NCBI GenBank assembly: GCA_018822435.1
Contig: JAHJKD010000035.1
Span: 1-32,493 of the forward strand
Length of the DNA: 32,493 nucleotides
From: Patescibacteria group bacterium
GTDB lineage: Bacteria; Patescibacteriota; Patescibacteriia; UBA9570; JAHJKD01
Direction of reading: 5' to 3'
The translations under genes were made by a program, and so were the position numbers. Each line of letters opens with the position of its first letter. Within the stretch, counting starts at the first letter, position 1. Positions 21,106 through 22,286 of this stretch are shown piece after piece. Below the pieces are notes generated by a model that was given only the letters and a program-made list of their open reading frames with translations, made no database searches and was not told the DNA's origin.

Positions 21106-21615
21106 ATGCTCTCAGTCATCCTAAAATCATTATGGTTCTTTCTGCCGATCGGGGCAGCGAACATGACCCCGGTCATATCCAAGGGGATTTTGAAATCCTG
21201 GGCCGTACCGATTAGTGAAAAGTGGCTGGGTAGTCATAAGACCTGGCGTGGTTTAATTTTAGGCGTACTGGCCGGTGAATTGGTGTATTTGATCCAGTGG
21301 TATGGCAATTGGGATTCTCTTAGTTTGTTTAATTATCAGGAATATCCTTGGTGGGCAGGTTTTGTACTTGGATTTGCCGCTCTTTTTGGAGACGCATTGA
21401 AAAGTTTTATCAAACGTCGTTTAAACAAAAAACCAGGCGCAACATGGTTTCCCTGGGATCAAATTGATTACACGGTCATGGGTTTGCTGGTTGGTACGAT
21501 CATTTTTCCGATTGGTTGGGAGACATGGGTGATTGTGATTTTACTTGGCATTCTTCTTCATATAATTACTAATAATATTGCTTATTGGTTGAAATTAAAA
21601 GATACGAGGTGGTAA
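21106..21615 (+). CDS. CDP-archaeol synthase (CarS)-like integral membrane CDP-alcohol synthase
   Basis: GSHKTWRGLILGVLAGE, ALFGDALKSFIKRRLNKKPGATWFPWDQIDYTVMG: CarS family hallmarks. Confidence 0.88.
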   Translation: MLSVILKSLWFFLPIGAANMTPVISKGILKSWAVPISEKWLGSHKTWRGLILGVLAGELVYLIQWYGNWDSLSLFNYQEYPWWAGFVLGFAALFGDALKSFIKRRLNKKPGATWFPWDQIDYTVMGLLVGTIIFPIGWETWVIVILLGILLHIITNNIAYWLKLKDTRW

Positions 21616-21619
21616 TTTT

Positions 21620-21647
21620 TTGACATATATAAGTTATATGTTATTAT
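21620..21647 (+). promoter_or_regulatory. Sigma70-like promoter (leader unit 1)
   Basis: TTGACA - 16 bp - TATTAT, 5 nt after the carS-like stop. Confidence 0.6.
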
Positions 21648-21660
21648 CTAATCAGGAAAT

Positions 21661-21686
21661 AGAGGCTCGGTGCCTCTGTTTTTTTT
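21661..21686 (+). terminator. Intrinsic terminator just downstream of leader promoter 1
   Basis: agaggc-tcggt-gcctct-g-tttttttt. Confidence 0.85.
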
Positions 21687-21737
21687 GTGTTTAGAACCAG
21701 GATGGACCTTAATTATTAAAATTAACCTTGATTATAT

Positions 21738-22115
21738 ATGAAAGACGAAATATTAGAAAAAATTACTTATGATGTTATAGGGTGTGCCATGCGCGTGCAT
21801 AACAAGCTTAAAAGTGGATTTCAGGAATTGATTTATCAAAGATGTTTGGCAATGGAATTCGAAAGAGAGGGAATTAAATTTGTTCGGGAAAAACAAATAG
21901 AAATTATTTACGACGGAGTTAAAGTCGGATTAAGAAGAGTAGATTTCTATCTGGAAGGAGGGATTACAGTGGAGTTAAAAGCTGTTTCAGATTTAGAATC
22001 AGTCCACCTCGCCCAGGCTAAAAATTATCTTGAAGCATTAAATATTAAAACTGGTTTATTACTAAATTTTGGCGCAAAGAGTCTCCAATACAAAAGACTT
22101 TACAATAATAAATAA
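21738..22115 (+). CDS. GxxExxY protein, PD-(D/E)XK nuclease-like fold
   Basis: GFQELIY motif; nuclease-like RVDFYLEGGITVELKAV and AQAKNYL. Confidence 0.92.
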   Translation: MKDEILEKITYDVIGCAMRVHNKLKSGFQELIYQRCLAMEFEREGIKFVREKQIEIIYDGVKVGLRRVDFYLEGGITVELKAVSDLESVHLAQAKNYLEALNIKTGLLLNFGAKSLQYKRLYNNK

Positions 22116-22137
22116 CCTAATCATGGCTAATCATCAT

Positions 22138-22207
22138 AATTATGGTTAATTCTGGTTCCAAAATTAAAAATTAATAAATAGGATTTGAACCAGAATTAAC
22201 CATAATT
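22138..22207. repeat. Long inverted repeat inside the right end of the GxxExxY unit
   Basis: aattatggttaattctggttccaaa pairs with tttgaaccagaattaaccataatt (one single-nt gap), loop about 21 nt. Confidence 0.85.
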
Positions 22208-22257
22208 TGAAAGATTATCCATGATAATATCATAATTAAGGTCAATCCTGGTTCCAT

Positions 22258-22286
22258 TTGACAAATTTTTCAGTATTCTTTATTAT
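22258..22286 (+). promoter_or_regulatory. Sigma70-like promoter of the secE-nusG operon (leader unit 2)
   Basis: TTGACA - 17 bp - TATTAT. Confidence 0.75.

Follow-up and report, generated by a model that had tools for sequence, protein, structure and literature searches.

A GxxExxY gene between inverted repeats in a patescibacterial genome: a probable member of a family of mobile palindromes that carry a predicted PD-(D/E)XK nuclease

Introduction

In the genome of a Patescibacteria group bacterium (assembly GCA_018822435.1), one short gene of the GxxExxY family stands between inverted repeats in the gap in front of secE, and the question is what kind of unit this is and how it might move. 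The stretch of DNA analysed here (contig JAHJKD010000035.1, 32,493 nucleotides, referred to as the window) had been read before from its letters alone, and this earlier note proposed a small mobile unit of about 560 bp with 23-bp terminal inverted repeats (TIRs), which would spread by its own nuclease, through homing or nicking of the repeats, or in trans. The unit is best explained as one of a widespread family of palindromes that are mobile and in which the role of the transposase would fall to a PD-(D/E)XK nuclease, by analogy with REPIN-RAYT systems, and we put the probability of this reading at about two in three.

The element in the window and its relatives in the same genome

The features of the locus are collected in Table 1. 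The outer repeats, described earlier as 23 bp with one mismatch, are indeed complementary at 22 of 23 positions, and the arm motif has not a single match, even with up to three mismatches, in 100 dinucleotide shuffles of the window. Inside the stretch the arm occurs twice more (22136-22158, minus strand, and 22187-22209, plus strand), and these two copies build a hairpin with 42-nt arms (22120-22225). Similarity is highest between arms that are opposed in the fold: the outer pair has one mismatch and the inner pair two (of the 23 core positions), other combinations have three to six. The 569-nt strand as a whole folds with z = -5.2 relative to shuffles. The outer bounds of the 560-bp unit thus stand, but it is not a single unit, as the stretch appears from its repeats to be composed of a gene-bearing unit (about 21694-22158) and a nested gene-less palindrome (about 22187-22254) at the right end. 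The gene upstream (21106-21615) is CarS-like (CDP-archaeol synthase family) and lies between gyrB and secE, a place that is conserved in several relatives. A promoter-like sequence similar to the one directly right of the element is found upstream of secE also in relatives that have no insert.

Table 1. Features of the GxxExxY locus (positions in the window)
Feature	Positions	Strand	Basis
Promoter-like TTGACA ... TATTAT upstream of the leader hairpin	21620-21647	+	consensus match
Leader hairpin AGAGGCTCGGTGCCTCT, then T run	21650-21689	+	directly precedes the left repeat
Left terminal repeat	21694-21735 (core 21694-21716)	+	tandem words GAACCAGGAT / GGACCTTAAT / TATTAAAAT / TAACCTTGAT
GxxExxY gene, 125 aa, predicted PD-(D/E)XK nuclease of the Cas4/RecB type	21738-22115	+	profiles, residues, model, fold matches
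Inner arm 1, putative right end of the gene-bearing unit	22120-22161		pairs with 22184-22225; inverted repeat I1, 86% complementary
Inner arm 2, putative left end of the adjoining gene-less unit (about 22187-22254)	22184-22225		arm match
Right terminal repeat	22232-22254	-	inverted repeat I2 with 21694-21716, 22/23; chance expectation 0
Promoter-like TTGACA ... TATTAT of secE, directly right of the element	22258-22286	+	consensus match

The genome (1.32 Mb in 63 contigs) was searched by pattern for further copies, as the earlier note had advised, and the arm of the window was found without a gene on contigs C22 and C61 (in 105-bp tandem units), C25 and C6. C22 and C61 both begin in the 105-bp tandem palindrome array, and since both contigs end in it, it is probable that the array broke the assembly there and that the two are neighbours. 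Additional GxxExxY genes are present on C54 and C55, the latter a tandem fusion of 269 aa, and a degraded one on C45, each with arms of its own, of which GAACCNNNGATTACGCAGATT is common to C54 and C45 and ACGAACTCGAATTAG belongs to C55. In the fusion (C55:9075-9830) the second domain has RVL in place of the usual ExK and is for this reason probably inactive. Of the leader hairpin GAGGCTCGGYGCCTCTGTTTT the genome has exactly three copies (C38, C45, C54), all immediately in front of GxxExxY elements, and the hairpin therefore probably travels with the gene. That it is a common terminator which served as insertion target was ruled out, as there are only these three copies, all beside GxxExxY.

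A predicted nuclease under constraint

The single ORF enclosed by the repeats belongs to the GxxExxY family as claimed, with scores far above the cut-offs of TIGR04256 (129 bits, cut-off 35) and PF13366 PDDEXK_3 (121 bits, cut-off 22). E30, D69, E79, K81, Q93 and Y97 are among the invariant or nearly invariant residues, so that also the proposed D...ExK core (D69, E79, K81) is conserved. An AlphaFold2 model of the protein (pLDDT 92.5, pTM 0.86) has its nearest solved structures in the Cas4 protein SSO0001 (E 2e-4), AdnAB and lambda exonuclease, at modest TM-scores of 0.4-0.55, and the homing enzyme I-Bth0305I is among the weak fold matches. The protein thus models as a PD-(D/E)XK nuclease of the Cas4/RecB/lambda-exonuclease type, and it shares with these enzymes the fold and the QxxxY motif, but at about 125 aa it is without their extra domains and it is encoded in a mobile palindrome. 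A PDB sequence search with the window protein gave no match, and neither did the PADLOC defence profiles, of which the Cas4b profile matches a relative weakly; in PHROG there was only a weak match to a family of unknown function.

Orthologues in the gap next to ruvX in Mucilaginibacter (see below) gave dN/dS values of 0.02-0.03 in five comparisons, two of them rough with dS above 1.2, and 0.13 in a sixth comparison in which one copy is broken. As judged from these sequences, the nuclease is under strong purifying selection.

Terminal repeats as a feature of the family

For each GxxExxY gene and for control ORFs, an upstream flank of about 230 bp was aligned to a downstream flank of the same approximate length in reverse complement, and a TIR was counted when the alignment beat all of 200 dinucleotide shuffles. 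In the class of the window, a TIR pair flanks 24 of the 27 testable GxxExxY genes and none of the 44 control ORFs. A second set, which spans Bacteroidota, Cyanobacteria, Chloroflexota, Desulfobacterota and further phyla, gave 45 of 77 testable loci and 3 of 46 controls; here about 40% of the genes lack a significant TIR pair within 200 bp. The family profile for the scan was built on a tighter alignment, the diverse one being too poor in conserved stretches. The arms usually consist of three to four tandem copies of a word of 7-10 nt that varies between elements (examples are TACGAAT, ACGCTGAT, CACAGAT and TGATT), and a typical outer end in the second set is GTCTGAAC.

Arm similarity and protein similarity are correlated (Mantel r = 0.64 over 70 elements, 0.34 in those of the class and 0.37 in the rest, reached in 0 of 2000 permutations each), so that the TIR words covary with the protein; the tests are uncorrected for phylogeny, and plain linkage would give the same result as recognition. 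Also, an arm resembles its partner at the same locus more than its counterpart in other species in 128 of 156 and 41 of 56 comparisons, and the matching of the arms thus appears to be maintained, by selection, gene conversion or renewal. Among the flanks viewed (L099-L178), the element often ends on its right side directly against the start codon (ATG) of the following gene, and on its left side it often provides the stop codon of the preceding gene or lies against it.

A target duplication, which had been named as a thing to look for, was not found: in 24 gene-bearing and 38 gene-less units there is no excess of flanking direct repeats of at least 4 bp, which argues against a standard cut-and-paste transposase.

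Insertion sites and past movement

The order carS-secE-nusG is syntenic in four relatives (G006, G004, G001, G050) that lack GxxExxY there, and the carS-secE gap measures 74-115 bp in these and 730 bp in the window. A junction without the insert, which the earlier note had asked for, is thus present in all four; as one genome per species was compared, these are insert-free gaps and not base-exact empty sites. The gene is patchily distributed, being found in 14 of 57 relatives and in 99 of 381 genomes of the class. In relatives, stop-free elements lie in frame within leuS for leucyl-tRNA synthetase (L356, G283:C102), recG (L357, G239:C1), lepA (L033, G024:C28) and a family-2 glycosyltransferase gene (L359, G448:C137), and GxxExxY is fused to recJ (L355) and to murB (L358). 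By Pfam, PDDEXK_3 at the in-frame insertions falls between or inside the domains of the host protein. An intein reading of these copies was ruled out, as only PDDEXK_3 is inserted and there is no Hint domain. The leuS gene has, in addition, short in-frame palindromic stretches of the same words. The TIRs of the lepA and recG copies, taken alone, are not above shuffles. As far as sequence comparison goes, the interruption of lepA, leuS, recG and the glycosyltransferase gene in relatives shows that the element was mobile in the past. Absence of other TIR copies, together with a gene fixed between carS and secE without empty sites, had been named as what would speak against a mobile unit, and neither is the case; family-wide TIRs, gene-less copies, insert-free junctions and in-frame insertions all bear the proposal out.

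A second view of movement comes from Mucilaginibacter, compared at one genome per species, where the gap between ruvX and a methyltransferase gene holds the gene at 23 loci, in both orientations, and is otherwise short and empty or has arms only. L249 and L253/L254, with flanks that are 96-97% identical, differ by the element, and because another hairpin occupies the spot in L249, no base-exact junction or target duplication can be read there. Other hairpin repeats (TGTCATGCTGAACG..., CATTGCGAGGTACGAAGCAATC...) are present in this gap in L213, L214, L215 and L249, so that it appears to be a hot spot for palindromes generally. In L216, L257, L268, L274 and L277 the gap holds another gene, starting like ...NQFEEIKHINDIG..., that is unrelated to GxxExxY. 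In Mucilaginibacter the gene often remains at a single locus, so movement is rare. For the family as a whole there are eight records on plasmids and none on phages, so that the elements are mainly chromosomal.

These sites bear on two other explanations. If the element were a homing element, the nuclease would cut a specific empty site and repair would copy the element in; PD-(D/E)XK homing enzymes do exist, with I-Bth0305I among the fold matches, and certain loci, ruvX among them, carry the element in many species. The insertions lie at unrelated sites, however (carS-secE, lepA, leuS, recG, the glycosyltransferase gene, ruvX and others), with no single cognate site among them, and gene-less copies are dispersed genome-wide. 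The homing route that the earlier note had considered is thus a poor fit in its classical form and very improbable. GxxExxY might also be a domesticated nuclease in DNA repair, defence or RNA processing, with the palindromes as binding or regulatory sites and movement past or incidental. Strong purifying selection at a constant locus, the tight fit of elements between stop and start codons and the maintained complementarity of the arms would all agree with such a host function, but the presence of the gene is patchy, conserved housekeeping genes are interrupted in frame, broken copies are common and the window protein matches no PADLOC defence profile, and this explanation is therefore improbable as well.

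Gene-less palindromes and their association with the gene

Palindrome ends were searched in 20 named genomes with two to seven GxxExxY genes each, using the pattern TCTGAACYNTGATTNNNNTGATT with at most one mismatch and the reversed pattern as control. Up to 42 ends were found per genome and none with the control; one Spirosoma has 42 ends and four genes, one Anabaena 33 ends and five genes. Most of the gene-less units inspected are palindromes of 60-160 nt, some of them in tandem arrays with a 4-nt spacer, and such hairpins are more numerous than the genes, several of which are apparently broken in this set.

Mucilaginibacter has the gene in 80 of 101 genomes, and in these 101 genomes there are 1813 ends in total versus four control hits. 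The median is 15 ends per genome with the gene and one without (Mann-Whitney p = 2.7e-4, n = 101 genomes), and having at least five ends is associated with gene presence (Fisher p = 5e-5), p-values that are indicative only, as the species are phylogenetically non-independent and kinship is uncorrected. In three genomes with 24-42 ends the gene was not found, which may reflect recent loss or incomplete assembly. One of the end-rich genomes, G089, has 40 ends and no gene, and as its near sisters G105 and G163 keep the gene along with 36-39 ends, a recent loss is suggested.

Mobilisation of miniature inverted-repeat elements (MITEs) usually takes place in trans, and to our knowledge no transposase chemistry has been described for a lone PD-(D/E)XK nuclease. 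Both would be expected if the palindromes were MITEs that depend for their movement on a conventional transposase encoded at another place in the genome, with GxxExxY as cargo or as a gene prone to capture. At 30 loci inspected, however, the only protein-size ORFs between paired ends are of GxxExxY size and none is of the size of an insertion sequence, nor was a parent element with a DDE transposase and the same ends among them. The lack of target duplications, the covariation of protein and TIR across many phyla and the tracking of gene presence by palindrome number likewise speak against a passenger role, and we give it a low, though not negligible, probability.

A proposed mechanism and its place among known systems

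In the preferred reading, a nuclease-bearing mobile palindrome, a full copy consists of a long inverted repeat whose loop holds a single GxxExxY gene, and defective copies would be the same palindrome minus the gene. The nuclease would recognise the tandem words of the arms, probably on a hairpin extruded in single-stranded DNA, and cut or trim the ends of the palindrome, after which host repair or replication may copy or paste it elsewhere. It could serve its own copy in cis and gene-less copies in trans. Such a processing of hairpins is favoured because the arms can fold in this way and because the relatives of the enzyme in structure act on DNA ends; against it stands that a lone PD-(D/E)XK nuclease is not known to join strands. 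It is tempting, if at somewhat less than even odds, to see here a new class of autonomous transposable elements of about 450-600 bp, possibly among the smallest, which would occur in many bacterial phyla, insert in frame in housekeeping genes and have as sole enzyme a Cas4-like PD-(D/E)XK nuclease that works on the hairpin of its own element, without a transposase of the DDE, HUH, serine or tyrosine type.

The closest working analogy appears to be REPIN-RAYT (PMC3116915, PMC8049555). In both cases inverted doublets that form hairpins are dispersed, often in tandem and mostly intergenic, and gene-less units outnumber few or single enzyme genes that are vertically inherited and constrained. Gene-less hairpin doublets are dispersed here as well, the enzyme gene is vertical at the ruvX locus in many Mucilaginibacter species, and the gene is retained over long times under strong selection like the RAYTs. 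RAYT is a tyrosine (Y1, HUH) transposase, however, whereas the only enzyme here is a PD-(D/E)XK nuclease, and the elements for this reason are not REPIN-RAYT members; also, the gene here lies inside its own palindrome, the arms have tandem words of 7-10 nt, and there are several gene copies at unrelated loci.

MITEs and small insertion sequences are similarly short, bounded by TIRs, AT-rich and intergenic, but for the elements described here no target-site duplication was found and, at the 30 loci inspected, no parent insertion sequence, and full copies encode a nuclease and not a DDE transposase. The Rickettsia palindromic elements (reviewed in PMC10969869) also lie in frame within protein genes; going by their description only, they are of about 150 bp and gene-less, whereas full copies here bring a nuclease domain into LeuRS, RecG and LepA. 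The intervening sequence of 23S rRNA with the S23 gene (PMC4990558) is likewise a very small selfish element with one short gene, but its site is the 23S rRNA and its product the S23 protein, whereas a PDDEXK_3 nuclease at intergenic and protein-gene sites is found here.

Implications

No earlier description of such elements was found in the open-access literature, which is what the search covered, and the TIR strings are in no open-access paper; GxxExxY itself appears there for example in a brief mention, as the neighbour of a reverse transcriptase. For this large family of unknown function, the setting in a mobile palindrome gives a concrete and testable role. If the nuclease does move the palindrome, an enzyme class would be added to the known ways of DNA movement, with a structural tie to Cas4, whose part in CRISPR adaptation is to trim DNA. 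This would also account for dispersed repeats in Bacteroidota, cyanobacteria and bacteria with small genomes, and nuclease-bearing elements would be shown to land in frame within LeuRS, RecG and LepA.
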